A stretch of 64,000 nt of DNA from Quercus robur (Eukaryota; Streptophyta; Magnoliopsida; Fagales; Fagaceae): positions 94,504,862-94,568,861 of the forward strand of contig NC_065535.1 of NCBI RefSeq assembly GCF_932294415.1, given 5' to 3'. The position numbers and the translations under genes were made by a program. This document shows, in pieces, positions 14,828-62,526 of this stretch; the stretch's first letter is position 1, and every line of letters begins with the position of its first letter. The notes below the pieces were generated by a model. That model was not told the origin of the DNA. It was given only the letters and a program-made list of their open reading frames with translations, and did not search any database.

Positions 14828-15515
14828 TAAAGAATAAACAAAAGTTTGTGGGCTGCAACAAAAAAGAACAGACGAAAAACAATGAAATGATCGTCAGAAG
14901 AAGAATCCCAAACGCAACTTTAACTCCAACTGTTGTCCGGTGCCTTATTTAACACCATGATTGTACGGTGCCTTAATAGACTTGTCCTTACCTTCACTTT
15001 TCAAGCTTCATCATATGGTCACGTGAAGCAAAGTATTTTATTATATTTTATATTTAGCAATTAGCACTACAACAGCATACAAAGTACAATCAACACTAAT
15101 ACTGATGTCAGCTTTGTTTGGATACAATGGAGGTAAGAGGAGAAAATAAATGAATAATAGAAAGGAATCCAGAAAGAAAAGAACAGAAATTTTTCGTTTG
15201 GTTTGCAATATGGAAGGAAATGAAAAAAAAAAATTTATTACTTTTATGTCTATATAAATGTGAAACATGCATAAAGTTATGGACAAATATGTAATTTTAT
15301 ATCATATTATATTATTTATGTAGGTTCCAATTTTTAAAAAACCATTCTCCTTTCAAATCTGGCCAAATTGGGTGTATTACAAATATGTAGGCTTGAGAAT
15401 GGGTTTTTCCTTATTGTTATTTGCCATGCAAACCAATGACAACATTTCCTATCATTTCTCTTCTCTTCTTCTGTCTTTCAGCGTTTTCAAACACACAGTA
15501 AAACTCAGTTGAATA

Positions 15516-15790
15516 CCAACATTCAGGCGACCTAGTTGGTAAAATACCGGGTCAACAAGTCTTGGAATTTGGGTTCAAGCCTTAAATAATTAGTCGTGTT
15601 TGTACTCCTTATATCCCATTTCTATCGCAAATGGTGGACTTAAAAAATAAGCGAGTTTCTCACATAGACCGAGAGTATGGGGTCTTGCTCGAGAGCAGAT
15701 ATGATGCTACTATGGTCTCACTCAGATAGGAAAGCCACACTGATCATCTCCCTCTACCCATTTTTTTTCACCAAAAAAAAAAAAAAAAAA
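15516..15790 (+). mobile_element. tRNA-derived SINE (copy A)
   Basis: Polymerase III boxes are visible: A-box GACCTAGTTGG near 15530 and B-box GGGTTCAAGCC near 15572. The element ends in an A tract. The target duplication is ACTCAGTTGAATA on the left and ACTCAGCTGAATA on the right (one mismatch). The same insertion is in copy B, so it predates the duplication. Confidence 0.75.
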
Positions 15791-16632
15791 ACTCAGCTGA
15801 ATATGTGTGGTTGTGATGAGTTGCGGTGTGGTTGAGATGAGTGGCGGTGTATTTTGAGGTTAAAAATGTGGATAAAAATATATATTTAATTGAAATAGTG
15901 ATGTAGTATTAAGGTTGATGTATAACTATAAAAAAACATAAATAGCTAAATTATTTTTAAAAAAAATAAAGTTTCTCTAATTAGTTTAATTAAAAATTTG
16001 AAGAAACTAACGTGAATGCTCCAAGTTCTAACTAATTACTTCCCTTAAACCTTTCTAAGTATATTCAATTGGCTGATATTTAAATTTAAAAATAAATTAT
16101 ACCAATGGCACACCCACTACACAGCACTTAGGCCATAGTTGGTATAATAAATGAAAATTACATTAAGAATAGAAATCTATATTAGTATAGATAAATTACA
16201 CCTATTTATATGTTTGGTTGTAAAAAAAATTACATTAATCTATATTAGTATAAATAAATTATAACTATTTATATGTTTGGTTGTAAAATTGAAATAATAC
16301 TCTTTATTGTATTCCACAAATTATAAATATTTTACTTAAACAATTATATTTAAACTTGTTGTGTGACTCAATTATCTTAAAATTAAATACTTTTGAAATT
16401 ATTTATGAGATTTTTTTGTTGATATATCATTTGTTAGTGTTTCTTTACAATGTAGTTGTGTTACTTTAACTCTTGTTAGTGTTGCAAAAGAGAATGAGGC
16501 GATCATTGTTTGGTTAGAAAAATATCTTTTTTTTTTTTTTTTCTTTCTCATTGTATAATATGATGCAGAATAAATAAAGTCTACTATGACTTTTACTATA
16601 AAAAAAAAAAATTACGTTATTGTCTATATTTC

Positions 16633-16845: not shown

Positions 16846-17404
16846 TTCAAATCAACACACGTAGCAATTTCTAAAAACTCATATAACAAAAAAAACATCT
16901 TCGCATCTTGAGTGCATATTTATATATATTGATGATTTTTTGAAAATTTTTATTATGTGAATAAATAAAATTTGTGATTTAGAAAATGAATTCTACTGTA
17001 CATAATAGTAAACCAATATTGAAAAAAGTTTATCGAAAATTGAAAAAGTTTTAATTTATTAATGTATGTCCCATCAGACCCTTAGAAAATATATTAATTT
17101 TAAAACTATTATGCACTTTAAAGTTTGTGACATTCAATAATAGCATGTCACATGTCAGTAATTTTGTAGTAGCAAAACCATGGTGATTGGCGGGAAGACA
17201 AACATCTCTACAAATGGAAGTTGAAGAGAGACTGACATGCAAGAAGTAGAAGACACGACATGAAATCACATCTCATATACATGCACCTCTACCGCACGGT
17301 TAACGAAGAAGCCATTTTACCAGCTCTGTACTAATTATCATGCACATCAATCATCATCATCGGACCATTCGCTTGTCTGTCTCTTCACATTTCAAAGCCT
17401 TAAA

Positions 17405-17499
17405 TACCCCCCAAAACCTCAAACCTTCCAAGCACCTCTTCCTCTTTCAAGTATTTGCATCACCAAGGTCTCTCTGAGTTAAGAGTTTTGTGCATAAGG
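17405..17499 (+). promoter_or_regulatory. Core promoter and leader exon of bromodomain gene A
   Basis: A TATA-like CTTAAATACC at about 17400 precedes a short CT-rich leader. The leader runs to a GT donor at 17499 (ATAAG|GTATGATC), which implies a 5' leader intron of about 500 bases before the ATG at 18037. The same arrangement is kept in copy B (donor near 56000). Confidence 0.45.
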
Positions 17500-18036
17500 T
17501 ATGATCTTTTGCCTATTTATGAATTTAATGACACAATTTCACAATTTTTTTTTTGTTTTTAGAACTATTGAGGTGATTGATTATAATTAGTAACTATAAA
17601 AGTAGTGTCAATCACTTGAAATTAAGTGATGTTGTACTAGTCATAATTTGCCATCTCATCAACAAGTTGTCAAAAAAGTAGTAAATTTTGTTTTGCTTGT
17701 AGCATCATATGGTGATTGAACCGGCTCTAAAGAAGTTGAAATGTGACATAGGGATACATTTTATTCAGTAATATATTCAAAGCTCAATTTTCAACTTCTT
17801 TTGTTTATGGTTGCTGCACTTGATTTTCTGTTGCTTATGAAAGCTCATGAAGTTTTTTTTTTTTTTTCGCCTATCTGTAGTGCAGAAATCTAGAGCTCAT
17901 TTTTTGTTGCTTGTGAAATCTCATAAATTTTTGCTTCTAGTTCAGTAATTTAAGCTCTTTTTTCTTTCTTCCTTTTTTTGGTGTGTGGGTGTGGCCTAAC
18001 AAATATTTGTATGTGAAGCATCTTTGTGGATAGAAC

Positions 18037-21000
18037 ATGAAACGCAGGCGTATGTTTAGAAAGAACGGTACCAAGACAAAAAGGCCCTCTGTAGTTGCCG
18101 AGAACAAAGAAGCATGTGAGAAATTTGATGATGAAAATCCTGAAGATAATGATGAATTTGATAGGGATTGTGAGGGCAGAGGCGATGAAGAAATTGACAC
18201 TGAAATGGATGGTGGTGCATTTTCCTCTAATTATCCAACTGGGAGCGACAGCAATTGGTCATGTAGCTCTGAAGATATGACTTCTGAATATAGTAGTTAT
18301 GAGTCTTCGGATGAGTCAATGGAGAGGCCAGTGCAGAAATTGGTTAATTGGCCTAGTAAAGGGAAGCTAAAGAGGGTGAAATTGTCCAGGAAAAGTGATT
18401 ACTCGCAGCCTAAGTCTTCAAGGGGCTTGGTATCTTCAAGTGGATACAATAAAGAGAGAAAGTCGATCCATGAGGATCCTCGATATAATGAGCAAGAATT
18501 ATGTGCTGCCTTAATGGTATGATGGAAATTTTTGTAATGCGTTTCTGTTTAAAAAATTTATTAGGTAGTGTATTTGATTAGTAGTTTGATTGATATATTT
18601 GTTGCTTTTCATGTAAATAATTTTAGAAAAAGAAAATTTTTTCTTGAAAAGATAGAAATTTTTTGTAGAATGATAACCTAACAAAGCCTATGGTTGCTAT
18701 TTCTAATTTTTTATTTTTTATTTTTTTTTATATGCTTAGTTAGACTTTGTTGTTGTTGTTTCCAATTGTTTATTTCTAGGTGATTATCAAGGTTATGAAA
18801 ATGGACGAGGCTAAACCTTTTAATGTTCCAGCGGATCCGGCTGCTTTGGAAACATCTGTAAGTGACACGTTTTGTAAGTATATTTTTCAGCATGCATAGA
18901 TGGTGCTAAGGGACAATGCTTCAGTCTGCCCTTAAGTAAGGAGGAAATTGCAGGATAGACAATTAAATTATTCATCTCTTTGTATTGTAAGATATAGAGG
19001 TTAATTAGGCCTTACACCTGAATATGCATCTGTCTTTGAACTCTGGTGCCGAAGATATAATGTAGCCAAGAAAATAGGAGCCCTTGTCGATTTTTAATCA
19101 CTCATCACTAGCTATTCATCCTTGATGAATTTGAAGTGGATTATTTCTTCTAAATTTTGATTCAATAACAAATGAGGGCAATGCATTTGTTTGTTTATTC
19201 CCTTCTTAAAGATCTACAAGTTCTGTGTGTAGCTTGTTATCCCATCTCCCTTTTTCAGCCTTTTGTAACTGTCATGTATTAAAAAGAAAGTCTTTTTGTA
19301 ACTATCATGTAATTGGAAGAAAAGAGTATATTCTTAACTAAATCTCATGGTTTTTAAAATTTCATTATGCTGCCTGAAGTCATAAAGTATCGTATACAGT
19401 AACTTAGAAATTATTTTATCAAGTACCATATGTTTTCATGTCCTAATCCTTATTTCCTATTCTTCTTTTTTTGGTTGGGTGGTTGGAACCAGGATTACGT
19501 CAATGTCATAGATACACCAATGGATTTTGGAACAATATACAGCAATCTTCAAAATGGTTTGAAGTATTTGAATTCTGAGGATGTATATAAGGATGTACAA
19601 CTCATTTGGAGACATTGGTGCAAGTATAATTACAAGGGTGATTATGTTTTGGAACTTATGACAAGTGTGAAGAAGAAATTCATGAAGCACTGGATAGCAG
19701 CTAATTTGTACTGTGAACCAACTCAAAAGACCAATGGTAAGAGTTTCATGTTTATGCTATTTCTCATTTATGTACACTTTTCACTTGACTTTACCAGTTT
19801 TTGCTAGTTCTCATTAATGCATTTGATTCTTTTGACTATACTAATTTTTAGAAGTTCACATCTTAGCTGATTTCTTTGTAAATAATTATAATCTTAAGTG
19901 TTGTGTGTGTGTGATTGTTGATACATAAAGGATCACCATGAATTTCGAAACATGTATATGAATCATGAGCATTCCATTATTTAGATATCTATTTTGTATC
20001 TGTTAATGGTATTGGGATCCATTCTTTGGTAGGACATTCACTACCTCCTATGCGGTATGACACAAGGCGCAAAAAATATGTGGCTAAGTATCCGGAGGGC
20101 CACATGATTGGCGGACCCAACCAGTCCCAGCCCCAATTGATCAAAAATGAACCATGTCACTCGCAGAAGCTGCAACAAAGCATTAGCCAACCACAGGCCT
20201 CCCAACCACAGGCTGGCAGTGATATCGGTAGCATAGGTATGCGATGCACTTAATTCTTCATATCAGGGATGATTGTTTCTTTAAGCTTTCAATCTATGTA
20301 ATATGTTATTAATTATATATAGATTAATGCTTTATCTCTTCAAAATTGATATTACAACTCCTATGACAGTATCAATCTGCATATTCGTTATACTTTTGCT
20401 GACACAGGCCCTTACTTCGGGCCATGGTAACCAGTATCATAACTACATACTCCGATCTTGTTTTTGTCAGTTGCTTTATGAAAGATACTGTTTTGTCTGT
20501 TGCATTTGGCATTGTGAGATTCTTATTGACATTATATACGTATTTCTGTTGTAACTGTTACTGATTGGTCTTTTTTTCACTCTTGTAGCAAACTCACCAC
20601 CTCATGCAGGCTATACAAATGATTGTGCAGGTGAGTTACATGTCAAATATAAATCCTCTTCAATGCCAGTTGAATATAAATTATATGTAACTTTTCAGTC
20701 ATACATTTGGGTTATGTGTTCGTCTCCAATTTCAATATTAAGATATCTATTTTGAAATTTTTATTGATTGGCTTTTTATCCATTGTAGGACAATCTCACT
20801 TACCACCTCATAGGGATCATGGCTTGAGGAGAAAAAATTACATGCTGAATCATCCGGTGGGTCCGATGATTAACAAACACAGCCAGCCTAAGCCACAGCA
20901 GCCCATACTAAGTTTCAACCAGTCATATCATTTACAGCAGCCGCAGCAGACGACTTGCCAAGCCCAGCCCTCCCATCCTCAGGCTGACACTGGAGGTATG

Positions 21001-23721
21001 CTAGATGATAAATCCTTTAACTTGCTATCTGTTTAGTATTTAACATACTAATATTTATGTTGTATAAACTTATTCATTATAGTTTCTTATTTTAGTACTA
21101 TTTTATCTTTATCTGCTTATTTATCTATCCAAGGAACAAGTTGATCTATGAAGCATCTAATTAAAATTTTCCAAACAGCATTATAGGTATCTTGTTTTCA
21201 TTTCCACTTGGTTATGTTACTTAAAATGTCTGCTAGTTTATACAACCAGGATTTAAGACAGACTTGAATATATGTAAACAATGAGGACCTGGCTCTCATT
21301 ATATAGGAGTTAATTTTGTAGCTAATATTGATATTTCCTTACTATTTTATGTAGGACAATCACCTGCAAACTCTGTCATGGGGTGCAGTAATTATAAGTC
21401 AAGTTGTCCATCAGGTCCTGTGATCAACAATCCTGGTCCACAGCAGCAGATTCAGGAGGCCCCAGAATGCCACAACCAACCATGCAAGTCAGTGTGCAAG
21501 CCTAGGAAAAAGAGGTGTCGAGGCCCTGCACGATGCCGCTTCTTGTGTGACTTGTCTGATGGTGAGCGAATAGATGTTTCAATCAACAGATTTGGGCAGC
21601 CCATTGGCCGTGAGGCTGCCAAGCTCAGCAGTTTCATGGGTACCATAGCACGGAATGGCTACATTGCACCCCTTACTTATGTCAGCTGGAAGGCTGTACC
21701 TTATGCAGCCAAAGAGGATATGTGGCAGATTGTCCAGGTACTACCAAAAAGTTTTTCTTTTTTAAGTAAATGAAACTTACATACAGTTCCTTAGGTTTTC
21801 AGAAGGAAATGTACCTAAGTTATACCAATAAGTTTTAGTCCTAAACCATCTCAAAAAGAGTATCCAATTTATAAGATAGCTCAGGCATATATAAGTTCAT
21901 TTTGCTGTGTTATGTAATTGAATGCTTTCCTTTTGTGCTATAGTCAAGGTTCAACATTGATCCGAAGGGGAAAAGTTGGGTCATTAAGTCTCTTGCAACA
22001 AAATGGAGGAGCTTTAAGTCCTTAGTAAAGGCTAAATATGAGCAACTAAGGCACCGTGATAGTAGGGTCCTTCCGCATCAATGGCCGATCCTCATATCCC
22101 ACTGGAACTCTGAAAGGGAAAAGGTATATTCTACATGCTGGCCAAAGGTTTTTTTTTTGTTTGTTTACTTGTTTGTTTGTTTGGTTTGTTTTGTATTGTT
22201 TTGGTGGTCTGAATGCTTGGCCCAAGACTGACATTCACATTTTGAGATGTGAGTTAAACATTCCATTAATATTTTACTCTACTTTCCAGATGAAATTTGG
22301 AAATGTGATAATTTATAGATCAAACTTTGTAGGTGCGAACTGCTATAAATAAGGCTTGCCGTGCAAAGATGAAGGATGTGCATACTTTAGGGAGGAAGAG
22401 CTATGCAAGGTTACGTGAGGAGGAGGTAACTTATATTTTTGTAAATTTTTATTGGTTCTGTGTGGTCTATATTTTTTTACATTCATCCATAATGTACTAT
22501 AACTTGTTCTCTATGTGAGGTCAGAGGGAGAAGCGGCCAAATGGGGAGGAGCCAAATAGGGATGAGATGTATATATTAACCCACACACATAAAGATGGGA
22601 AACCTGTTAATGAGGAAGCAGCAGCCAAAATTGTATGTTTTATTTACTTTTTAAAGTAACTTTAGCCTCATGTGGTATTATTTTTTGTGTAAACCGTTAA
22701 TTGTATAACACCTAGCCTCCTGTAGTATTGTTTTTTGAGCAAACCATTAATTGAATAACACATGGGGGTTTTGTATATTTTCCCAAGTGTAATTTTCAAG
22801 GTGATTTATAATCTGAACTCTTGAATCTTCTCCATGCCAGTCAAAGCTCCGTGAACTAGCATCTCAGCAACCAAAGACCTCAAATGACCGGGATGATATC
22901 TTCTTTAAAGTCATGGGACAAGAAAAACCTGGATACGTGCGCACATATGGCTTGGTACCAAACCCCTCTGATGTATTGGGCTCAACATCTAGCCTTACAG
23001 AGGCCAAGATGGTAGCTACTGCAGAGATGAGTAAGATGGTGGAGAAAATGGAGGCCATGGAGCAAAGATACACTTGCATGGAAGCACAGATAACTAAGAT
23101 GACATCATACATGGAAAGATTCCTCAAGAAGCAAGTAAGATGACATGCTTTGGATGTTAAGACTCTGATTTTGAATATTAGTGATTGCAATTGTGTTAGT
23201 AAATGAGATTTACTGTACAAGTTCATTAAATATGACTTTAAGAACTTGAAGAACGAATCAATCTGTAGTCTGTACATTCTGAAAATGTGTTCTAGACTTC
23301 TAGTTCAATTTTGTGACACTGTGAGGAATGAATCAATCTATACATTCTGAAATGTGGCCTCTCATGCCTGTAAATCTGTACCGATTTGCTGATTGTTGAC
23401 TTAATGATGGGTAGTGTATAAGGACATTATTTTTTTTTAAAGCTTCATACTTGTTTCTTGCATTTTTGCTCAAGTATTCTTAGTGGTTTGATGTATCAAT
23501 TTCATGAAAGATGGCTAACTGTCTAACATTGTTTATGTTTTGAAGCAATTAAAGATGTGACTTGGTCGTCTACTAACCTGTTTCATTATACATTAGCTTT
23601 GCTAGTTATTCACTTGTGCGGTTATGCCACTAACCAAAATCTTAACTGTACAGATCCTAATTCAGTTTCTTTTACGTTCTCATTCTGTTTGCAGGATGAG
23701 CAGAGTGGCAGTGATGGTTGA
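18037..23721 (+). CDS. Bromodomain and En/Spm-type transposase-domain fusion protein, copy A
   Basis: Likely a nuclear protein that pairs an acetyl-lysine reader with a transposase-derived DNA-binding domain. Twelve exons join in frame with GT-AG junctions: 18037-18516, 18780-18857, 19493-19736, 20033-20236, 20589-20630, 20789-20995, 21355-21737, 21944-22123, 22333-22425, 22525-22632, 22841-23134, 23695-23721 (779 aa). Residues 1-150 are a basic start (MKRRRMFRKNGTKTKRPS) and an acidic, Ser-rich stretch. About 150-265 are a bromodomain (DYVNVIDTPMDFGTIYSNL, then CKYNYKGDYVLELM with the acetyl-lysine-binding Asn). About 270-440 are Pro/Gln-rich exons including a 42-base microexon. About 450-700 match Transposase_24 (PF03004; GERIDVSINRFGQPIGREAA, then SHWNSEREKV). 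A coiled coil follows (KMVEKMEAMEQRYTCMEAQI). No catalytic DDE set is seen. It is open throughout, which suggests selection; function is inferred. Confidence 0.85.
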
Positions 23722-24417
23722 AACAAATGGAGCCATTTAGCAAGAACTGTCTTATTGAATTGATTGGAACTTACTGGATTTTGTTGATAATAATGCTTGA
23801 GTTGTAAACAAGTTTCATTAATATGGTTTTCTTTTAAGATTATGATCAGAATGTAATGAATAAGGTCCATATATAGACTTCATAACTGTCAATGCTGCAC
23901 AGATAATTCATTCGAATTTTTATATGTAGTAGCTTTTAATTTTATTTGAGTCTCCTTTGAAAGGATATCTTTTCTCTGATATTTACGACCCTGGTGACAG
24001 TATTTAAATTTTTTTTGTTTTCGTTTTACGTTCTTTTTTTTTATAGCAAAATATTTTTAATCAGACAACTATTTTTAGCAATTCCAACCCTTGTTGAAAA
24101 ATATTTAAGCAACATCATGTCTAAATAGTTTTACTAAAATATATGAAAATTTAAGAAGCACGATATTATTTGGGAAAAAATAAAAAATAAAAAGGGGTGT
24201 ACATTTTTTTAGTTTCTTTTTCCTTTGTTTTTTTCTTAAGTTTTTTATACTTACTAAGACACGACCACTCTCCAATTTCAACACAAAATTATATTCCTAA
24301 TGTTATTAGCAAAATTAATTCTTCAAATAATCTAAGAAGAAACATTATCTTAGGTATTCTTCAACAGCCTTTCCTCAACTTTGTGATTAGTTATTGGTTT
24401 TTGGGCTTGATGCATCT

Positions 24418-24910
24418 TAGTTCATGTGTATGGAGTTTATTAATTATGCGTGCAGGCCAAATATTGATTTTTTTAGTATGTAATAAGTTTATATCCCTTT
24501 ATGAGTTAGGGTTTAATGTAAATGTCATAATCATAGTTTTTTTTTTTTTTTTCTCTTGTTTATTTATTTATTTATTATTATTATTATTATTATTTTATAG
24601 ATAGTTATAAGAGGAATGAAGATTTAAACCCTAGATGTCTCCATTGGAAATACTAAAAAATGTCAATTAGTTGAGTTACAAAATTCAACTAATTGACACT
24701 TAGTTCATGTGTATGGGGTTTATTAATTATGCGTGCGGGTCAAATATTGATTTTTTTACTATGGAATAAGTTTATATCCCTTTATGAGTTAGGGTTTAAT
24801 GTAAATGTCATAAACGTAGGGTTTTTTCTCTCTCTTCTTTTTTGATAATTTGATATGGATATTTAAACCCCAAATGTCTCCATTAGAAACACTAGAAAAT
24901 GTCAATTAGC
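24418..24910. repeat. Tandem 250-bp units with hairpin (copy A, about two units)
   Basis: A unit starting TTAGTTCATGTGTATGG recurs at 24418 and 24702. It ends in an inverted repeat around TCAATTAGTTGAGTT / CAACTAATTGACA (24662-24702). The same unit occurs three times in copy B. A GGTTTAAACCC box inside (reversed SINE-like B-box) suggests a SINE origin. Confidence 0.6.
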
Positions 24911-25339
24911 TAGTTACTCTTAGCAAATACAAGGGTTAATCCTTGCTCTCACTCTATTAATTAGTTAGTCTTACCATTAGACCTAGTATCTTCCATGTTG
25001 CACAACTTTTCTTTGCAGCCAAAGACAAGTACAAATCATTTATTAATTTTAAGGGTAGCTTCAAACTAAATAGCTAGTTTCAAAATTTAAAGGTTTAATT
25101 TGTAGCAATGTTAAGCTCCAATCTTTAATTTGAAACTTTTGAAACTATAAACTTTAATTTGAAATCACCCTTATAACATGCCCCATTAAGTTTCCAACAA
25201 TATTAAGTCGCGGACATACAAAGTAAACTAAATATTACATTCCTTGGTATCGAAATTACAGTGAAATTATTTTGTGCATTAATTTGATGTGCATCTTCCT
25301 CTAACATATAGGTCAATACTACATATGTGATTCCTATAC

Positions 25340-26939: not shown

Positions 26940-27519
26940 TGATGAGGATAAAATTAGGTAGACAAAAGTGACGGTACAGGCTTGACAAGGGTGACGAGAT
27001 GGTCTTGCCGTCAGCATTCCTTCAAGGCTGACGGGGACCTGAAGTAAAAGAACTCCACATAAAGCCGAACATCCTGAAGTTGACGGGATAAACATAGATT
27101 GACGGGATAACATAAACTGATGGCGTCAGTCTATGGAATGTTTGATCTGCACGTTTACATGTATAAGTAAATAACTTGCTCCCCACGTTTCATGAAATCT
27201 AAGGACTCCTATATGGAAAGAATCCCGTAAAATACGCCTAAGAAGACTCCTATAAGGAAAAGACTTCTACTCCAAGGAAAAGAGGGGCAGCCCTCGCTAC
27301 TATAAAAACCCAAGCACCCTCACAAACCAAGGTACGCATAATTTACCCTCTCTAGCACTCTAGAGCAGTAAGAATAATTCTAACTTGACCTTCGGAGGGT
27401 GTTTGGCCGGTACCACACCGGTACTCCCCACTAGGTTATTCCTTTTCGTTGTGCAGGTGCCATTTGCGATCGTACGAGGAACGTGTGACTCACTGGTGGT
27501 ATTATTTCCGGCATCATCA
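26940..27519 (+). repeat. 5' LTR
   Basis: TGATGA...TCATCA ends. TATAAAAACC at 27301-27310 is the probable core promoter. Several TGACGG and TTGAC motifs lie in the first 200 bases. Confidence 0.95.
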
Positions 27520-27521
27520 GT

Positions 27522-27539
27522 TGGCGCCGTCTGTTGGAA
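27522..27539 (+). promoter_or_regulatory. Primer-binding site
   Basis: TGGCGCCGTC starts two bases after the LTR. The first nine bases fit the 3' end of tRNA-Asp, a primer used by many plant Ty3 elements; complementarity fades after that. Confidence 0.6.
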
Positions 27540-27579
27540 ACGTTTTAGCACATTTTCGCTTCCCAGACAGAAGAGTTAC

Positions 27580-30500
27580 ATGGTACTCACTCGCTCAATG
27601 GCGACCACCAACGACGTTCAAGAAGAAGAAGCCCCTACGACCGCGCTTGAAAGACAGTTGAGGACACTCGCCGCCGCCGTGGAGCGCCTCACCAAACAAA
27701 ACCACGACCTAGAAGAGCAACTAAGACAAAAAAATGTAGCGCCCAACAACCATGGAGCAGATCAAGAAGGAACCAGCGCCGACAAAAGAAACCAGGAAGG
27801 ACCCCAGGCCAGCAACGCCCCGAGCAAACCAGAACGACAAAACACAAGCATCCCCTCCCTCGCAGAAACCACTCCGCCGCTTGTTATCGCAGAGATGCAA
27901 GCCATGAAGGAACAAATGGAGGTTATGATGAATGCTCTCAAGGGACGAGTATCAAGCGACCTTGACGACCTTGTCAACCGAACTGACTCGCCATTCACCG
28001 CCACCGTCAACACCTACCCTTTACCAAGTAAGTTCCGCATGCCACAGATAGACAGTTATGACGGGGTCAAGGACCCACTGGACCACCTGGAGACTTTCAA
28101 GACCCTAATGCACCTTCAAGGAGTTGCGGATGCCATCATGTGTAGGGCCTTCCCTACAACGCTGATGGACGCAGCAAGAATTTGGTTCAGCCGACTGACG
28201 CCAAACTCCATCAGCACCTTCAAAGAGCTCAGCGCTCAGTTTACCGCACACTTCATTGGAGGCCATCGATACAAGAAGTCTACGGCTTGCTTGATGAGTA
28301 TGAAGCAGCGAGAAGATGAAACTTTAAGAGCCTACATCTCCCGCTTCAACAAACAAGCACTCTCGATCGACGAAGCCGACGATAAGATACTTGTTGCGGC
28401 ATTCACGAATGGCTTGAAGAAGGGTAAGTTTTTGTTTTCCCTATACAAAAACGACCCAAAAACCATGTCGGAAGTACTTTATCGCGCCACAAAGTATATG
28501 AACGCTGAAGATGCGTTGTTAGCTCGAGAAGAGAGGCCCAGGAAAAGAGAAAGGCAGGAAGACAATCGACAGGACCAAGGCCGAAAGAAGGCAAGAACAG
28601 GAGACCGAAGGGACGAAAGGCGCCCTAAGCCCCTAGGGGGAAGGTTCACGAGCTTCACTCTGCTAACAGCCCCGATAGATCAAGTCCTTATGCAAATTAA
28701 GGACGAAGAGGCTCTGACATTCCCGGGAAAACTGAAAAGCGACCCCAAAAAAGGTTCCCGGGATAAGTATTGCCAATTCCACCGCGACCACGGCCACGAC
28801 ACAGCTGATTGCTATGACCTCAAGCAGCAGATTGAAGCCCTTATCAGACAAGGAAAGCTGCAGAGATTCGTTAGCAAGGAGAAAACGGATCCCCCCGAAC
28901 AAGACCAACGTCCCCGACGGGACAATGAGCGTCCGAGGCCCCCGATCGGAGATATAAGGATGATCGTAGGAGGAACGGCTGCCACCGGGTCATCCAAGAA
29001 GGCCCGCAAGACCTATCTTCGGATGGTACAAAATGTTCAGCTGACGGGAGTCGTACCAAAGATAGCACGGAGAGAGGGTCCCATAATCGGATTCTCGGAA
29101 GAAGACGCGCAACGCCTTCACCATCCACATGACGACGCACTCGTCGTCAGCTTGCGTGTAGGAGATTACAATATGCACCGGGTGCTGATCGACAATGGCA
29201 GTTCAGCAGATATCTTGTACTACACAGCATTCCAGCAGATGAGGATCGACAAGGAGCGACTGATCCCAACAAATGCCCCGCTTGTTGGCTTCGGCGGGAG
29301 CCGAGTATTCCCACTGGGCGCGGTCACATTATCCGTAATTGTAGGTGATTACCCTCAACAGATAGCGAGGGACGTGACATTCTTGGTAGTTGATTGCTCG
29401 TCAGCCTACAACGCTATCCTCGAGAGACCCACGCTCAACTCATGGAAGGCGGTAACCTCCACCTACCACCTGATGATAAAGTTCCCAACTGACTACGGAG
29501 TAGGGGAGCTGCGCGGGAGTCAGATGGCCGCGCGCGAATGCTACATAGCCATGATGGAAATGGAGGATCAGGTTCAGGCTTTAAGCATAGAAGAGCACCG
29601 GACGGTAACGGAGCCGGTTGAGAAGTTAGAAGAGATACCCCTTGACAGTTCCGATCCTGGCCGGACGACCAAAATTGGAACGCTCGCTAACCCCACGGTC
29701 CATCAGGAGCTCATAACCTTCCTCAGACGCAATCAAGACGTATTCGCATGGGGTCATGAAGATATGCCGGGAATAGATTCTTCAGTCATGGTGCACAGGT
29801 TGAATGTGTCGCCCGCCTTTCTGCCTATCAGACAAAAGAAGAGGGTGTTTGCCCCCGAGCGAGACCGAGCCATAGCAGAGGAAGTCAGAAAGCTACAGGA
29901 AGCGAGCTTCATTAGGGAAGTATACTATCCCTACTGGTTAGCAAATGTAGTAATGGTCAAAAAAGCGAGCGGGAAATGGCGGATGTGTGTGGACTTCATC
30001 GACCTTAACAAGGCCTGCCCCAAGGATAGCTACCCCTTCCCGAGGGTTGACGTCCTAGTAGACTCTACAGCCCGACACCAGTTGCTGAGCTTCATGGACG
30101 CTTTCTCGGGGTACAACCAAATCCGAATGCACGAAGCCGACCAGGAGAAAACGTCGTTCGTGACCAGCCAAGGCCTCTTCTGTTACAAGGTCATGCCCTT
30201 CGGCCTGAAGAACGCAGGCGCAACGTACCAAAGGCTCATGAACAAAATGTTCGCGCAACAGATTGGGAGGAATGTCCAGGTCTACGTAGACGACATGCTA
30301 GTCAAAAGCCGAAGGGAGGAAGATCATCTAGGAGATCTCAAAGAAACATTCGACACACTTCGCTCCTACAACATGAAGCTCAATCCGGGGAAATGTGCCT
30401 TTGGAGTGACGGCAGGAAAATTCTTGGGATTCATGGTATCTCAAAGGGGAATCGAGGCAAACTCGGATAAGATCCGGGCCATTATGGATATGGCACCACC

Positions 30501-32814
30501 AAGAAATGTGAAGGAGGTGCAAAGCCTCAATGGAAAGATAGCGGCGCTGAATAGGTTCATGTCAAGGGCGACGGACAAATGCTTGCCCTTCTTCCGAACA
30601 TTAAAGAAATCCTTCGAGTGGACTGACGAATGCCAGCAAGCCTTCGAAGAATTGAAGGCTTACCTCTCCTCCCCACCATTGCTAAGCCCGTCGCAGCCAG
30701 GAGAAGAACTTTTCCTCTATCTAGCCGTCTCCCCCGCAGTCGTTAGCGCGGCCTTGGTCAGAGAAGAAGAGAAAGTGCAAAAACCCGTGTACTACGCAAG
30801 CCGAGCACTTCACGGTGCCGAAGAAAGATACCCGCCCATGGAGAAACTTGCCTTCGCATTAGTTACGGCAGCCTGTAAACTCAAACCATACTTCCAAGCT
30901 CATACTGTAAACGTCCTGACTGACAAGCCCTTACGATGGGCAATGAGCAGCCCCGAGGTCGCGGGACGATTGGCGCTATGGGCTATAGAGCTGAGCGAAT
31001 TTGACATTCAGTATCGCCCGCGGACCGCCATCAAGGGACAGATCGTCGCCGACTTTATAGCTGAGTTCACTCATGACGAAGACAAGGGGGCAGCAGAGTC
31101 CCCTCAATGGAGCATATATACGGACGGATCGTCCAACAGGCAAGTCGCAGGGGCCGGCATTGTGCTACTATCGCCCGAAGGAGACACCATCGAATGTATG
31201 GTCCGTCTCGACTTCCCTGCCACCAACAATGAATCGGAGTATGAGGCTCTAATAGCGGGGCTTGACCTCGCCAAAGTAGCAGGAGTCGCGAGGGTAGTCA
31301 TCTACTGCGATTCACAGGTCATCACTAACCAAATAAACGGAGACTACGATTGCAAGGGCGAAAAGATGAAAAGGTACCTTGATGAAGTAAGGACGAGGGT
31401 GGGTGACCTAGAAGCCAAAGTCGTCCAGATTCCCAGAGAAGAAAACGAGAGAGCCGACCGTCTCGCGAAGGCCGCTTCAGCTGAACAAATGGTCATCCCT
31501 GGTAATGTACTCTCTTTCGTACAGCTTTCCCCGCTAATAGATCTCAGCAACATGCAGGAAATATGCTCCGAAAGTAGCTGGACAGCGCCGTTAGTTTCGT
31601 ACCTAAAAAACGGGGTCTTACCAGATGAGAAGGAAGCCGCAAGGAAACTTACAGTCCAGGCGGCGAGGTTCGTCCTGATAAAAGACGTCCTGTATAAAAG
31701 AGGTTTCTCCCGACCATATCTGAGATGCTTGGGTACGGAAGAGGCAGACTACGTCATGAGAGAAGTACATGAAGGAATCTGCGGAAACCACTCAGGGTCT
31801 AGATCGTTGGTACACAAGCTTGTGCGAGCAGGGTATTATTGGCCCACCATGCAGAAGGACGCCAAAGCCTATGTCAGGGCCTGCGACAAATGCCAAAGGT
31901 TCAGCAATATTATTAGACAACCAACCGAAGAGCTGACCCCGATAACAGCCCCATGGCCGTTCGCACAGTGGGGGTTAGATATTATGGGACCATTCCCTAC
32001 AGCCGTACGACAGCTAAAATTCCTGGTAGTAGGCATCGACTATTTCACAAAATGGGTGGAAGCTGAAGCTTTGGCAACGATTACAGAAAAGAACGTGCGG
32101 AGCTTTGTCTGGAGATGTATCATATGCAGGTTTGGCATTCCTAGAGTCTTTGTCTCGGACAACGGGAGACAATTCGACAACAACCCCTTCCGGGATTTTT
32201 GCTCACAGTTAGGAATAAAGAACCACTACTCCTCCCCCGCCCACCCTCAAGCTAATGGACAGGTCGAAGTCACGAACCGATCCTTGCTCAAGATTATCAA
32301 GACTCGGCTCGAGGGGGCAAAGGGTATATGGCCCGAAGAATTGCCAAGTATACTATGGGCATACAGGACGACGGCAAGAACACCCACGGGAGAGACACCG
32401 TTCCGACTGACGTATGGGGGCGAAGCAGTTATCCCAGCCGAAGTTGGACTCACAAGCTACAGGGTGCACAACCATGATGAGAACAAAAACGACAAGGCTA
32501 TGCGACTACAGCTCGACCTAGTGGACGAGATCAGAGCAACAGCAGAACAAAGGCTCGCTAGGTACCAGGACCGCATGGCCAAACACTACAACTCTCGAGT
32601 CCGACATAGAGACTTCCAAGTTGGAGACCTTGTTCTTAGAAAGGTCATGGGTGCCGCTAGGGACCCTACTCAAGGGAAACTCGGCCCCAATTGGGAAGGA
32701 CCTTACCGAGTTACATCGTGGCAGAGAAAAGGTACTTACCACCTAGAGACATTGGAAGGACAGAAGCTACCACACCCATGGAACGCCGAACACCTATGGA
32801 AGTATTACCAATAG
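27580..32814 (+). CDS. Ty3 gag-pol polyprotein
   Basis: One frame of 1744 aa from the first in-frame ATG after the primer site (MVLTRSMATTNDV); the frame is open further upstream but only inside the LTR. Order: a coiled-coil start; Gag capsid-like domain at about 150-230 (RMPQIDSYDGVKDPLDHLE); zinc-knuckle-like YCQFHRDHGHDTADC at about 395; aspartic protease with DNGSS at about 538. Reverse transcriptase follows at about 790-960 with YVDD at 902-905. The first RNase H has lost its first Asp (LYLAVS instead of the usual DAS). A second, archaeal-type RNase H at about 1176-1303 has YTDGSS, ESEYEAL, YCDSQV and ERADRLAK. Integrase carries an HHCC finger (HEGICGNHSG, CDKCQR) and DDE core (WGLDIMG, SDNGRQF, NGQVEVTNR). 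No chromodomain, stop or frameshift. It makes the particle and integrates new copies. Confidence 0.95.
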   Translation: MVLTRSMATTNDVQEEEAPTTALERQLRTLAAAVERLTKQNHDLEEQLRQKNVAPNNHGADQEGTSADKRNQEGPQASNAPSKPERQNTSIPSLAETTPPLVIAEMQAMKEQMEVMMNALKGRVSSDLDDLVNRTDSPFTATVNTYPLPSKFRMPQIDSYDGVKDPLDHLETFKTLMHLQGVADAIMCRAFPTTLMDAARIWFSRLTPNSISTFKELSAQFTAHFIGGHRYKKSTACLMSMKQREDETLRAYISRFNKQALSIDEADDKILVAAFTNGLKKGKFLFSLYKNDPKTMSEVLYRATKYMNAEDALLAREERPRKRERQEDNRQDQGRKKARTGDRRDERRPKPLGGRFTSFTLLTAPIDQVLMQIKDEEALTFPGKLKSDPKKGSRDKYCQFHRDHGHDTADCYDLKQQIEALIRQGKLQRFVSKEKTDPPEQDQRPRRDNERPRPPIGDIRMIVGGTAATGSSKKARKTYLRMVQNVQLTGVVPKIARREGPIIGFSEEDAQRLHHPHDDALVVSLRVGDYNMHRVLIDNGSSADILYYTAFQQMRIDKERLIPTNAPLVGFGGSRVFPLGAVTLSVIVGDYPQQIARDVTFLVVDCSSAYNAILERPTLNSWKAVTSTYHLMIKFPTDYGVGELRGSQMAARECYIAMMEMEDQVQALSIEEHRTVTEPVEKLEEIPLDSSDPGRTTKIGTLANPTVHQELITFLRRNQDVFAWGHEDMPGIDSSVMVHRLNVSPAFLPIRQKKRVFAPERDRAIAEEVRKLQEASFIREVYYPYWLANVVMVKKASGKWRMCVDFIDLNKACPKDSYPFPRVDVLVDSTARHQLLSFMDAFSGYNQIRMHEADQEKTSFVTSQGLFCYKVMPFGLKNAGATYQRLMNKMFAQQIGRNVQVYVDDMLVKSRREEDHLGDLKETFDTLRSYNMKLNPGKCAFGVTAGKFLGFMVSQRGIEANSDKIRAIMDMAPPRNVKEVQSLNGKIAALNRFMSRATDKCLPFFRTLKKSFEWTDECQQAFEELKAYLSSPPLLSPSQPGEELFLYLAVSPAVVSAALVREEEKVQKPVYYASRALHGAEERYPPMEKLAFALVTAACKLKPYFQAHTVNVLTDKPLRWAMSSPEVAGRLALWAIELSEFDIQYRPRTAIKGQIVADFIAEFTHDEDKGAAESPQWSIYTDGSSNRQVAGAGIVLLSPEGDTIECMVRLDFPATNNESEYEALIAGLDLAKVAGVARVVIYCDSQVITNQINGDYDCKGEKMKRYLDEVRTRVGDLEAKVVQIPREENERADRLAKAASAEQMVIPGNVLSFVQLSPLIDLSNMQEICSESSWTAPLVSYLKNGVLPDEKEAARKLTVQAARFVLIKDVLYKRGFSRPYLRCLGTEEADYVMREVHEGICGNHSGSRSLVHKLVRAGYYWPTMQKDAKAYVRACDKCQRFSNIIRQPTEELTPITAPWPFAQWGLDIMGPFPTAVRQLKFLVVGIDYFTKWVEAEALATITEKNVRSFVWRCIICRFGIPRVFVSDNGRQFDNNPFRDFCSQLGIKNHYSSPAHPQANGQVEVTNRSLLKIIKTRLEGAKGIWPEELPSILWAYRTTARTPTGETPFRLTYGGEAVIPAEVGLTSYRVHNHDENKNDKAMRLQLDLVDEIRATAEQRLARYQDRMAKHYNSRVRHRDFQVGDLVLRKVMGAARDPTQGKLGPNWEGPYRVTSWQRKGTYHLETLEGQKLPHPWNAEHLWKYYQ

Positions 32815-33059
32815 GAGCAACAACATGAAGACCGACCTATTTTTTTTTATTCCAGCAAACTTTAGTTTTACTCCTCGGATTTATCATTTACTTTAGTTTT
32901 TTCTTTTTTTGCAACAAATACTTTTTAGCCCGAAGGGCAGGATTCGGTTTTAATTACTTTTATTTAAATGCATGACAATAAGAGGAGTTTATTCAGAAAT
33001 TGCTGGAGTATTTATTCTTTCTACGGTCCACTAATTTCACATCCTAAGACGGCTAAGTC

Positions 33060-33640: not shown

Positions 33641-33847
33641 CCAAGCAGACGAGAATTTTTACCAAAATTTCGTCTAAAACAAAGAGAGATAAAAGCTACG
33701 GAAATGAAATACATGTGCAACTGTACATAAACGAAAAGGGCACTTAAACATGGTTTAAAACTACAACTGTTTAAAACTACAACTGTTTAAAAATTACAAC
33801 TGTTTTCCAAAAAATTTAAAAAGCAACTGTTTTGTACATAGCTACAA

Positions 33848-36051: not shown

Positions 36052-36059
36052 CTGACTAC

Positions 36060-36162
36060 CTACAAGTGACGGGTTGAAACTAAGTACCTAGGCTGACGGC
36101 CTCACTAATGAGGCAAAAATAAAAAAGAAAAAGAAGGAAGGGGAGAGAAAATGAAAACTTAC
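36060..36162 (-). other. Leader intron of the antisense gene
   Basis: On the minus strand CCG|GTAAGT at 36162 is a strong donor and CACTTGTAG ending at 36060 a good acceptor, eight bases before the ATG. Confidence 0.55.
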
Positions 36163-50247: not shown

Positions 50248-50249
50248 TA

Positions 50250-56633: not shown

Positions 56634-59600
56634 ATGAAACGCAGGCGTATGGTTAGAAAGAACGGTACCAAGTCAAAAAGGCCCTCTGTTGTTGCCGAGA
56701 ACAAAGAAGCATTTGAGAAATTTGATGATGAAAATCCTGAAGATAATGATGAATTTGATAAGGATTGTGATGGCAGAGGCGATGAAGAATTTGACACTGA
56801 AATGGATGGTGGTGCATTTTCATCTAATTATTCAACTGGGAGCCACAGCAATTGGTCATGTAGCTCTGAAGATATGAGTTCTGAATATAGTAGTTATGAG
56901 TCATCGGATGAGTCAATGGAGAGGGCAGTGCAGAAATTGGTTAATTGGCCTAGTAAAGGGAAGCTAAAGAGGGTGAAATTGTCAAGGAAAAGTGATTACT
57001 CGCAGCCTAAGTCTTCAAGGGGCATGGTATCTTCAAGTGGATACAAAAAAGAGAGAAAGTCGATCCATGAGGATCCTCGATATAATGAGCAAGAATTATG
57101 TGCTGCCTTAATGGTATGTTGGAAATTTTTGTAATGCGTTTCTGTTTAAAAATTTTATTAGGTAGTATATTTGATTAGTAGTTTGATTGAAAGATTTGTT
57201 GCTTTTCATGTAAATAATTTTAGAAAAAGAAAATTTTTTCTTGAAAAGATAGAAATTTTTTGTAGAATGATAACCTAACAAAGCCTATGGTTGCTATTTC
57301 TAAATTTTTATTTTTTTGATATGCTTAGTTAGACTTTGTTCTTGTTGTTTCCAATTGTTTAATTCTAGGTGATTATCAAGGTTATGAAAATGGACGAGGC
57401 TAAACCTTTCAATGTTCCAGCGGATCCGGCTGCTTTGGGAACATCTGTAAGTGACACGTTTTGTAAGTATATTTTTTGGCATGCATAGATGGTGCTAAGG
57501 AACAATGCTTCAGTCTGCCCTTAAGTAAGGAGGAAATTCCAGGATAGACAATTAAATTATTCATCTCTTTGTATTGTAAGATATAGAGGTTAATTAGGCC
57601 TTACACCTGAATATGCATCTATCTTTGAACTCTGGTGCCAAAGATATAATGTAGCCAAGAAAATAGGAGCTCTTGTTGATTTTTAATCACTCATCACTAG
57701 CTATTCATCTTTGATGAATTTGAAGTGGATTATTTCTTCTAAAGTTTGATTCAATAACATATGAGGGCAATGCATTTGTTTGTTTATTCCCTTCTTAAAG
57801 ATCTACAAGTTCTGTGTGTAGCTTGTTATCCCATCTCCCTTTGTCAGCCTTTTGTAACTGTCATGTATTAAAAAGAAAGAGTCTTTTTGTAACTATCATG
57901 TAATTGGAAGAAAAGAGTATATTCTTAACTAAATCTCATGGTTTTTAAAATTTCATTATGCTGCCTGAAGTCATAAAGTATCGTATACTAACTTAGAAAT
58001 TATTTTATCAAGTACCATATGTTTTCATGTCCTAATCCTTATTTCCTATTCTTCTTTTTTTGGTTTGGTGGTTGGAACCAGGATTACGTCAATGTCATAG
58101 ATACACCAATGGATTTTGGAACAATATACAGCAATCTTCAAAATGGTATGAAGTATTTGAATTCTGAGGATGTATATAAGGACGTACAACTCATTTGGAG
58201 ACATTGGTGCAAGAATAATTACAAGGGTGATTATGTTTTGGAACTTATGACAAGTGTGAAGAAGATTTTCATGACGCACTGGATAGCAGCTAATTTGTAC
58301 TGTGAACCAACTCAAAAGACCAATGGTAAGAGTTTCATGTTTATGCTATTTCTCATTTATGTACACTTTTCACTTGACTTTACCAGTTTTTGCTAGTTCT
58401 CATTAATGCATTTGATTCTTTTGACTATACTAATTTTTAGAAGTTCACATCTTAGTTGATTTCTTTGTAAAAAATTATAATCTTAAGTGTTGTGTGTGTG
58501 TGATTGTTGATACATAAAGGATCACCTTGAATTTTGAAACATGTATATGAATCATGAGCATTCCATTATTTAGATATCTATTTTGTATCTGTCAATGGTA
58601 TTGGGTTCCATTCTTTGGTAGGACATTCACTACCTCCTATGCGGTATGACACAAGGCGCAAAAAATATGTGGCTAAGTATCCGGAGGGCCACATGATTGG
58701 CGAACCCAACCAGTCCCAGCCCCAATTGATCAAAAACGAACCATGTCTCTCACAGAAGCTGCAACAAAGCATTAGCCAACCACAGGCTGGCAGTGATATT
58801 GGTAGCATAGGTATGCGATGCACTTAATTCTTCATATCAGGGATGATTGTTTCTTTAAGCTTTCAATCTATGTAATATGTTATTAATTATATATAGATTA
58901 ATGCTTTATCTCTTCAAAATTGATATTACAACTCCTATGTCAGTATCAATCTGCATATTCGTTATACTTTTGCTGACACAGGCCCTCAATTTGGGCCATG
59001 GTAACCATTATCGTAACCACATACTCATCTATCTTGTTTTTGTCAGCTGCTTTATGAAAGAAACTGTTTTGACTGTGACATTGTGATATTCTTATTGACA
59101 TTATATACGTATTTCAGTTGTAACTGTTACTGATTGGTCTTTTTTTCACTCTTGAAGCAAACTCACCACCTCATGCAGGCTATACAAATGATAGTGCAGG
59201 TGAGTTACATGTCAAATATAAATCCTCTTCAATGCCAGTTGAATATAAATTATATATAACTTTTCAGTCATACATTTGGATTATGTGTTCGTCTCCAATT
59301 TCAATATCAAGATATCTATTTTGAAATTTTTATTGATTGGCTTTTTATCCTTTGTAGGACAATCTCACTTACCACCTCATAGGGATCATGGCTTAAGGAG
59401 AAAAAATTACATGCTGAATCGTCCAGTGGTTCCAATGATCAACAAACACAGCCAGCCTAAGCCACAGCAGCCCATACTAAGTTTCAACCAGTCATATCAT
59501 TTACAGCAGCCGCAGCAGATGACTAGCCAAGCCCAGCCCTCCCATCCTCAGGCTGGCACTGCAGGTATGCCAGATGATAAATCCTTTAACTTGCTATCTG

Positions 59601-62526
59601 TTTAGTATTTAACATACTAATATTTATGTTGTATAAACTTATTCATTATAGTTTCTTATTTTAGTACTATTTTATCTTTATCTTCTTATTTATCTGTCCA
59701 AGGAACAAGTTGATCTATGAAGCATCTAATTAAAATTTTCCAAACAGCATTATAGGTATCTTGTTTTCATTTCCACTTGGTTATGTTACTTATAATGTCT
59801 GCTAGTTTATACAACCAGGATTTAAGACAGACTTGAATATATGTAAACAATGAGGACCTGGTTCTCATTATATAGGAGTTTATTTTGTAGCTAAAATTGA
59901 TATTTCCCTACTATTTTATGTAGGACAATCACCTACAAACTCTGTCATGGGGTGCAGTAATTATAAGTCAAGTTGTCCATCAGGTCCTGTGATCAACAAT
60001 CCTGGTCCACAGCAGCAGATTCAGGAGGTCCCAGAATGCCACAACAACCAACCATGCAAGTCAGTGTGCAAGCCTAGGAAAAAAAGGTGTCGAGGCCCTT
60101 CAAGATGCCGCTTCTTGTGGGACTTGTTTGATGGTGAGCGAATAGATGTTTCTATCAACAGATTTGGGCAGCCCATTGGCCGTGAGGCTGCCAAGCTCAG
60201 CAGTTTCATGGGTACCATAGCACGGAATGGCTACATTGCACCCCTTACTTATGTCAGCTGGAGGGCTGTACCGGATGCAGCCAAAGAGGATATGTGGCAG
60301 ATCGTCCAGGTACTACCAAAAAGTTTTTTCTTTTTTAACTGAAACTTACATACAATTCCTTAGGTTTTCAGAAGGAAATGTACCTATGTTTCACCAATAA
60401 GCATTAGTCCAAAACCATCTCAAAAAGAGTATCCAACTTATAAGATAGCTCAGGCATATAAAAGTTCATTTTGCTGTGTTATGTAATTGAATGCTTTCCT
60501 TTTGTGCTACAGTCAAGGTTCAACATTGATCCGAAGGGGAAAAGTTGGGTCTTGAAGTCTCTTGCAACAAAATGGAGGTGCTTTAAGTCCAAAGTAAAGG
60601 CTAAACATGAGCAACTAAGGCACCGTGATAGGAGGGTCCTTCCGCATCAATGGCCGATCCTCATATCCCACTGGAACTCTGAAAGGGAAAAGGTATATTC
60701 TACATGCTGGCCAAAGTTTTTTTTTTTTTTTTGGTGGTCTAAATGCTTGGCCCAAGACTGACATTCACATTTTGAGACATGAGTTAAACATTCAATTAAT
60801 CTTTTACTCTACTTTCCAGATGAAATTGGAAATGTGATAATTTATAGATCAAACTTTGTAGGTGCGAACTGCTATAAATAAGGCTTGCCGCGCAAAGATG
60901 AAGGAAATGCATACTTTAGGGAGTAAGAGCTATGCGAGGTTACGTAAGGAGGAGGTAACTTATATTTTTGTAAATTTTTATTGGTGCTGTGTGGTCCGTA
61001 TTTTTTTACATTCATCCATAATGTGCTATAACTTGTTCTCTATATGAGGGCAGAGGAAGAAGAGGCCAAATGGGGAGGAGCCAACTAGGGATGAGGTTTA
61101 TATATTAACCCACACACATAAAGATGGGAAACCTGTTAATGAGGAAGCAGCAGCCAAAATTGTATGTTTTATTTACTTTTTAAAGTAACTTGTATTTTAC
61201 CAATCTAAGTTTTGGCACGAGTTTGACTTTTCTATCTCTGAGTGTTATTCTGCCTGCTTGTGCTTCATTATGTTATGCATTTTGTTAAAATTGCTGTGTG
61301 TTAAGAGGTCTCATCACTCTCCAAGCAACAAGAAATAGGATGAGAGAGAACATATCAGGCTTAACAATAGCAGGCAAAGTGAACATTTTATAAATCAAGT
61401 TAGTCAAAAGGCACAATATCCAAATCACTGGTGATTCAAGTGTAATGGAAAAATTACACAAAACCCCTTAGTGGTTTTCATAAAACATGGAACTCCTGAA
61501 GTTTTGAGTGTAACACTTAGCCTCATGTGGTATTGTTTATTGAGTAAACCGTTAATTGAATGACACATGGGGGTTTTGTATATTTTCCCAAGTGTAATTT
61601 TCAAGGTAATTTATAATCTGAATTCTTATATCTTCTCCATGCTAGTCAAAGCTCCGTGAACTAGCATCTCAGCAACCAAAGACCTCAAATGACCGTGATG
61701 ATATCTTCTTTAAAGTCATGGGACAAGAAAAACCTGGATACGTGCGCACATATGGCTTGGTAGCAAACCCCTCTGATGTATTGGGCTCAACATCTAGCAT
61801 TACAGAGGCCAAGATGATAGCTACTGCAGAGATGAGTAAGATGGTGGAGAAAATGGAGGCCATGGAGCAAAGATACACTTGCATGGAAGCACAGATAACT
61901 AAGATGACATCATACATGGAAAGATTCCTCAAGAAGCAAGTAAGATGACATACTTTGGATGTTAAGACTCTGATTTTGAATATTAGTGAATGCATTTGTG
62001 TTAGTAAATGAGATTTATTGTACAAGTTCATTAAATATGACTTTAAGAACTTGAAGAACGAATCAATCTGTAGTCTGTACATTCTGAAAATGTGTTCTAG
62101 ACTTCTAGTTCAATTTTGTGACACTGTGAGGAATGAATCAATCTATACATTCTGAAATGTGGCCTCTCATGCCTGTAAATCTGTACCGATTTGCTGATTG
62201 TTGACTTAATGATGGGTAGTGTATAGGGACATTATTTTTTTTTAAAGCTTCATACTTGTTTCTTGCATTTTTGCTCAAGTATTCTTAGTGGTTTGATGTA
62301 TCAATTTCATGAAAGATGGTTAACTGTCTAACATTGTTTATGTTTTGAAGCAATTAAAGATGTAACTTGGTCGTCTACTAACCTGTTTCATTATACATTA
62401 GCTTTGCTAGTTATTCACTTGTGCGGTTATGCCACTAACCAAAATCTTTACTGTACAGATCCTAATTCAGTTTCTTTTACATTCTCATTCTGTTTGCAGG
62501 ATGAACAGAATGGCAGTGATGGTTGA
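56634..62526 (+). CDS. Bromodomain and En/Spm-type transposase-domain fusion protein, copy B
   Basis: Paralogue of the gene at 18037-23721, with the same 12 exons: 56634-57113, 57369-57446, 58082-58325, 58622-58810, 59158-59199, 59358-59564, 59924-60309, 60513-60692, 60862-60954, 61054-61161, 61646-61939, 62500-62526 (775 aa). All junctions are GT-AG and all frames stay open. Net length changes are multiples of three (five residues, ASQPQ, lost in exon 4; one Asn gained in exon 7). In the bromodomain the conserved Tyr before the acetyl-lysine-binding Asn is Asn here (CKNNYKGD against CKYNYKGD in copy A). In exon 2, LGTS matches the usual plant form better than LETS in copy A. The Transposase_24 region and coiled coil are preserved. 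It may still bind DNA while reading acetyl marks differently; that is inference. Confidence 0.85.

Follow-up and report, generated by a model that had tools for sequence, protein, structure and literature searches.

The 64,000 nt stretch of the Quercus robur genome analysed here (the window, C2:94504862-94568861) contains a gene in which exons of bromodomain ancestry are spliced in frame to exons with the ancestry of tnpA, a gene of CACTA (En/Spm) transposons. A second copy in the same window is open throughout, and neither transposon ends nor the companion gene tnpD were found beside the fusion within the stretches searched and the matches listed. The explanation we favour, and hold to be fairly probable, is that a local duplicate of a bromodomain gene gained the 3′ exons of a CACTA tnpA, and that the hybrid is now a host gene.

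Copy 1 (18037..23721, plus strand) consists of 12 coding exons, located at 18037-18516, 18780-18857, 19493-19736, 20033-20236, 20589-20630 and 20789-20995 (exons 1–6), and at 21355-21737, 21944-22123, 22333-22425, 22525-22632, 22841-23134 and 23695-23721 (exons 7–12). All introns have GT-AG boundaries (11/11), and the spliced coding sequence of 2340 nt is a single frame with its sole stop at the end, encoding 779 aa. An earlier reading made from the letters of the sequence (the sequence-only reading) had proposed twelve exons joined in frame into one protein, with a microexon, and these coordinates hold, the microexon being exon 5 (42 nt, phase 1-1). An additional short exon placed by eye in the intron between exons 4 and 5 was dropped because the frame would break. 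The Pfam search returned a bromodomain (PF00439) at residues 164–240 (E 7.9e-10, 39.0 bits against a cut-off of 21.7) and Transposase_24 (PF03004) at residues 590–715 (E 3.8e-31, 108.5 bits against a cut-off of 28.7), with a Myb/SANT-like match at residues 532–579 (0.09) below cut-off and no match for Transposase_21 in the fusion protein. The bromodomain (18789..19654) is split across exons 2 and 3, and the MDFGTI and CKYNYKGD motifs, on which the sequence-only reading had based its bromodomain, are both encoded in exon 3. In the alignment with BRD4, the Asn of CKYNYKGD is placed at the YN of the BC loop, the acetyl-lysine-binding residue of bromodomains, and it is retained in both copies. The Transposase_24 match (22073..22966), also foreseen in that reading, is followed by the expected coiled coil, predicted for residues 719–774 in exons 11–12 (22976..23703), where 12/16 of the a/d heptad positions are hydrophobic, a contrast reached by only 19 of 5000 shuffled sequences. 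Between the two halves lies a Gln/Pro-rich linker (20033..21494), which comprises exons 4–6 and the first part of exon 7. Three of its segments, namely exons 4 and 6 and this first part of exon 7, are repeats that have diverged from one another (exons 4/6, 43.5% identity, 1.4e-12; exon 6/exon 7 start, 6.6e-6; exon 4/exon 7 start, 0.004) with phase-1 introns between them; exons 4–7 all begin in phase 1, and the donor of exon 3 is likewise in phase 1. Exons 4–6 and the exon 7 start resemble tripled phase-1 exons.

The TnpA half (residues 466–779, 21495..23721) extends from KKRCRGP in exon 7 to the end of exon 12, and matches a TnpA resident in the same genome. The latter belongs to a CACTA-type locus (L046, C1:28686500-28696499) where tnpD precedes tnpA by 3.5 kb on the same strand, and its spliced TnpA contains Transposase_24 at 4.1e-29. 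The two proteins share 29% identity (95/329 columns, E 3e-47), and their exons end in VK, DAV, AKK, EKM and CNQ in the CACTA locus and in VQ, REK, EEE, AKI and KKQ in the fusion, with all ten ends in phase 0. Introns 7/8, 8/9 and 10/11 are at the identical ungapped codon, and intron 9/10 is at an equal distance past a shared YA with a two-residue gap adjoining it in the alignment, while intron 11/12 is outside the aligned region, so that only its phase and its position following the coiled coil can be compared. The exon of the CACTA locus homologous to exon 7 starts in phase 1. In published work, PF03004 is used to call tnpA and PF02992 to call tnpD (PMC8195511), Transposase_24 is placed in ORF2 of CACTA elements (PMC8978399), and TnpA binds the subterminal repeats of its element (PMC8195511). 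The captured part reads as six tnpA exons with their introns, encoding TnpA, the non-catalytic DNA-binding partner. The captured CACTA transposase domain of the sequence-only reading was thus correctly assigned to CACTA elements, but it is neither catalytic nor a single domain. Fusion to the catalytic transposase was ruled out, since PF03004 marks tnpA, a Transposase_21 match is absent and no tnpD was listed nearby. A retro-copied tnpA was likewise ruled out by the presence of its introns, and a recent capture from a living CACTA family by the distance of the closest listed TnpA places (35% identity at best, 29% over the full TnpA half). The fusion has Transposase_24, the 29% identity along the TnpA half and the corresponding same-phase introns in common with CACTA TnpA, but differs in its N-terminal bromodomain, in the absence of any terminal inverted repeats (TIRs) or tnpD found, and in having two full copies among the matches listed.

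The host bromodomain half comprises exons 1–3 (18037..19736), the counterpart of exons 1–3 of an unfused gene located nearby (L043 2912-4156). This is one of five unfused bromodomain genes (L039-L043, 10 kb fetched for each) situated 16–390 kb beyond copy 2, and both fused and all five unfused copies lie within 0.45 Mb of one chromosome. Exons 1–3 end in phases 0, 0 and 1 in the fusion and the unfused gene alike, exons 2 and 3 are equal in length in both (78 and 244 nt), and exon 1, which starts with MKRRR... in the fusion and MKRKRG... in the unfused gene, ends at the corresponding place and phase. In a tree that included six further bromodomains from the genome, the fused and unfused genes formed one clade (100/100), and none of the remaining bromodomains listed for the genome exceeds 38% identity to the parent type. 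The neighbour thus shares its first three exons, intron phases and bromodomain with the fusion, but past exon 3 it continues with C-terminal exons of its own (GAESIQVEDV..., RRRHKNDCLCAICVLKRRRRE... and an acidic stretch, with junctions placed by eye), where the fusion has TnpA instead; no match to these exons was found within the fusion locus. The five unfused genes are about 96–99.9% alike over the stretch fetched, and a frameshift of one base near the start is common to L039-L042; L043 stays in frame there. They are spaced by approximately 87–97 kb (C2:94.58-94.96 Mb) and four of the five are 99–99.9% identical, so the array reflects either a large and very recent tandem amplification or an expansion in the assembly. 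The motifs of the unfused gene are those of what we take to be the BRD5 type (Arabidopsis AT1G58025). The best solved matches of both the fusion and the parent bromodomain are the first bromodomain (BD1) of BRD2-4, and AtBRD5 has been reported as close to BD1 of BRD2-4 (PMC10030601). Since the motifs and this nearness point the same way, the unfused parent would be of the BRD5 type, which has been described as a streptophyte-specific interactor in a plant SWI/SNF subclass (PMC9170682).

Copy 2 (56634..62526, plus strand) is open in all 12 exons, located at 56634-57113, 57369-57446, 58082-58325, 58622-58810, 59158-59199 and 59358-59564 (exons 1–6), and at 59924-60309, 60513-60692, 60862-60954, 61054-61161, 61646-61939 and 62500-62526 (exons 7–12), with GT-AG at 11/11 introns; this is the open second copy mentioned in the sequence-only reading. 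The two proteins are identical at 725 of 774 aligned residues, and the net length changes in copy 2 (15 nt shorter in exon 4, 3 nt longer in exon 7) preserve the frame. In the self-comparison of the window, the core of the duplicated block (17082..24916, no strand assigned) pairs with 55557-63738, and a further stretch at 15092-16632 pairs with 53115-54605. Because similarity continues beyond the gene at both sides, the second copy was judged not to be the result of transposition, and the two copies arose by duplication of a block of ~8 kb or more. A third relative is a ~2.4 kb fragment on another contig, C39 (L044 3668-6114), which extends from the end of exon 4 into intron 10, is 93–96% identical with introns included, and has gaps within exons and a single in-frame stop, and lacks a bromodomain. 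The 10 kb fetched contain no long inverted repeat flanking it, and we take it to be a broken part of the fusion and not its source. A stretch of 94 bases in the window (916-1009) is 95–97% identical to exon 2 and its donor site, and lies inside a foldback of a wall-associated-kinase-like gene, the inverted repeats of which pair 5-116 with 1881-1992, 114-302 with 1696-1884, and 297-483 with 1038-1224. With respect to the fusion itself, an arrangement by chance is excluded by the family scores, the intron positions common to two independent parent genes and the conserved second copy.

Several results weigh against a working host gene of this descent. Exon 1 is only weakly alike between the fusion and the unfused gene (480 versus 615 nt, with 0.70 nonsynonymous substitutions per site, dN), and of 17 outgroup-informative sites in the bromodomain, 14 point to change on the fusion branch versus 3 on the parent branch (two-sided sign test ~0.013). 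Constraint between the copies is weak (dN 0.0297, synonymous substitutions per site, dS, 0.0531, dN/dS 0.56, bootstrap 0.35–0.92), their dN of 0.030 is about that of the introns (0.029, or 0.037 with intron 10), and copy 2 has lost the Tyr beside the Asn of its bromodomain (CKNNYKGD). The genome search listed matches to linker exons 4–6 and the start of exon 7 solely in the two copies and the C39 fragment, and no source for exons 4–6 was found. The gene model was built from genomic DNA, and a scan of prokaryote contigs for orthologues, which could hardly show one, gave seven pattern matches and no relative.

These results leave some room for a real but decaying chimera, formed by chance, never or no longer useful and not yet broken, for which the dN/dS near 0.5 between copies, the faster change than in the parent and the Tyr lost in copy 2 all speak. 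Both copies are however still open with in-frame length changes only, and this was set against a neutral simulation using the intron rate (90/3077 sites and 8 indels, intron 10 left out), which predicted 68 substitutions and 6.1 indels. The probability of finding neither stop nor frameshift was 0.0006 (0.055 for no stop alone), which makes neutral decay unlikely. Over exons 2–3 (106 codons), copy 1 and the unfused L043 differ with dN 0.19 and dS 1.41, the latter near saturation, giving a dN/dS of 0.134, which points to constraint over a longer history, part of it possibly preceding the fusion. With the C39 fragment as third sequence (330 codons; 209 synonymous and 781 nonsynonymous sites), synonymous/nonsynonymous changes were 9/14 for copy 1, 4/10 for copy 2 and 3/9 for C39, and the resulting ratios (~0.42, 0.67 and 0.80) follow the expected order, on counts too small to be proof. 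One copy may be on its way out. Any constraint between the copies would be weak to moderate; we regard a decaying chimera as an unlikely account of the locus.

A six-frame search of the genome (785.7 Mb, 42 contigs) with the fusion protein listed 62 matches from the best 58 of 195 candidates scored, so that counts are lower bounds. The full fusion gene was listed only as the two window copies, together with the one C39 fragment, and five places at C2:94.584-94.957 Mb matched exons 2–3 (exon 3 at 64–65%); the remainder included at least 29 TnpA-like places at 26–35% identity and some distant bromodomains. Of the 29 matches listed by a bromodomain search, only those of the two window copies lie within 20 kb of a listed TnpA match (compared by eye), the next nearest listed pair being ~43 kb apart on opposite strands of C6. 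In a tnpD search with the best 150 of 292 candidates scored, at least 10 of the 29 TnpA-like places had a tnpD match within 12 kb upstream on the same strand, and among the matches listed there was none beside the fusion, the nearest on its contig being ~0.9 Mb away. Transposase_21 was absent from the eight Pfam-scanned frames among the 26 window frames of at least 130 aa, and CACTA TIR pairs with a 3-bp target duplication were found neither around copy 1 (8–18 and 23.8–34 kb) nor around copy 2 (46–56.6 and 62.6–64 kb, a right flank of 1.4 kb only).

The sequence-only reading had left it open whether a host gene captured a transposon part or a transposon captured the bromodomain, and its second option would here mean that a CACTA element took up bromodomain exons 1–3 by transduplication and carried a chimeric tnpA, of which the locus is an immobile remnant. 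Acquisition of additional domains and of host fragments has been reported for CACTA elements (PMC8978399, PMC8616336), and the C39 partial copy means that a piece of the fusion moved at least once. That piece is nevertheless the gapped fragment with a stop and without bromodomain or long inverted repeat, both full copies found belong to a block duplication that reaches past the gene, no end pairs or tnpD were found, and the fusion sits near its bromodomain parent like a tandem duplicate instead of being dispersed. We give capture by a transposon somewhat less credence than decay. The first option of that reading gains from the five unfused copies within 0.45 Mb: with a bromodomain parent close by and no CACTA ends or tnpD found beside the fusion, it was probably the host gene that acquired tnpA exons, and a transposon carrying exons 1–3 would be expected elsewhere, which also favours gain of tnpA by a local host-gene duplicate. 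The chimeric protein probably serves the plant and not a transposon. Least probable of all is that a short bromodomain gene and an independent downstream tnpA-like gene are joined in the model only, for although that model comes from DNA and read-through of intron 3 stops soon past the bromodomain, making a short form possible, the frame and splice sites are kept across 12 exons and 11 introns in both copies, the exon 3 donor and exon 4–7 acceptors are all phase 1, and a separate bromodomain gene lacking the parent C-terminal exons at this locus would be truncated.

With the parent exon 3 ending in phase 1, and fusion exons 4–7 and the corresponding exon of the CACTA locus starting in it, the simplest history of the host gene that gained tnpA exons is joining via a phase-1 intron, between two genes that were both intron-rich beforehand. 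A single-bromodomain gene, probably one of the BRD5 type, would have been duplicated locally, and the duplicate would have gained the 3′ exons of a CACTA tnpA downstream of exon 3, as genomic DNA with introns. Splicing through the phase-1 intron would then have connected both parts in frame, the mobile parts (transposon ends and tnpD) would have been lost, and the hybrid host gene would later have been duplicated as a block of ~8 kb or more. Because this genome still carries relatives of both parents, one of them in the immediate neighbourhood, the probable course of the fusion can be read from it: tandem duplication, gain of intron-bearing transposon exons, joining at a phase-1 intron and loss of the mobile part.

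Maize TnpA dimerises via its C-terminal part, and the fusion retains the TnpA half from the RGP motif through to the C-terminal heptads. The TnpA half would bind DNA as a dimer through the C-terminal coiled coil, and the bromodomain half would dock on acetylated histones, so that the protein would either direct a chromatin function of the bromodomain type to TnpA-type DNA sites, or hold a TnpA-type DNA binder in acetylated chromatin. Our best guess from sequence comparison is a chromatin-tethered dimeric DNA-binding regulator, in which DNA binding, acetyl-lysine binding, dimerisation and the regulatory role are all predicted properties. More tentatively, and with rather more doubt than belief, TnpA may have been domesticated by fusion to a BRD5-type bromodomain, linking TnpA-type sites to acetylated chromatin or to a SWI/SNF remodeller. 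If so, the gene might encode either a host factor that restrains CACTA elements or a transcription factor derived from such an element, and its target sites could be the CACTA subterminal repeats themselves. If expressed and conserved, it would constitute a natural acetyl-chromatin reader with a transposon-derived address.

Plant host regulators derived from transposon DNA-binding proteins are well known for MULE and hAT elements. FAR1/FHY3 and MUSTANG (MULE) and DAYSLEEPER (hAT) resemble the fusion in being transposon proteins without ends and at low copy number, and the fusion, with two full copies and one fragment among the matches listed and no ends found, has this same hallmark of domestication. 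They derive from MULE or hAT elements, whereas the fusion derives from CACTA, and their conservation across species is known, whereas the fusion is known here from one genome. To our knowledge, no bromodomain fusion exists among the domesticated MULE and hAT genes. Host-transposase fusion genes are a recognised class as well, in which a transposon DNA-binding part and a host domain are combined in one protein, as in the fusion. DAYSLEEPER lacks the catalytic motif and TIRs (PMC8616336), and one published host-transposase fusion joins an F-box to a Tc1/mariner helix-turn-helix (PMC12062965). The gene described here differs from other such fusions in combining several CACTA tnpA exons with a bromodomain, in a plant. 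The portions of the open-licence PMC literature covered contained no report of a bromodomain with Transposase_24, Ptta, CACTA or a domesticated transposase, nor of a domesticated CACTA tnpA gene. In the excerpted texts, a review of plant bromodomain proteins (PMC10451976) does not contain 'transpos', and a survey of Arabidopsis and rice bromodomains (PMC10030601) has it once, on transposon activity in spruce. Likewise in excerpt, the main text on stress phenotypes of transposon-derived genes (PMC5715367) has neither CACTA nor Spm, and a grapevine survey (PMC2528002) discusses domesticated transposases in its part on MULE and hAT, without 'bromo'.

Elsewhere in the window, a Ty3-type long terminal repeat (LTR) retrotransposon occupies 26940-37071, with LTRs that are 98.1% identical and a gag-pol frame of 1816 aa, and between pol and the 3′ LTR there are antisense frames (33848-36087), one of which is weakly Transposase_28-like, below cut-off. 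An inverted repeat at 42071-43016 and 45961-46906 has arms of 946 nt that are 95% complementary and 2.9 kb apart, and at 47920-50254 a unit of 345 bp is present in about seven tandem copies, mostly 89–91% alike in register. Two predictions of tRNA-Val in the window look like chance matches within repeats. Finally, the minus strand carries an Endomembrane protein 70 (TM9) gene at 51228-52805 that seems to lack its first exons.

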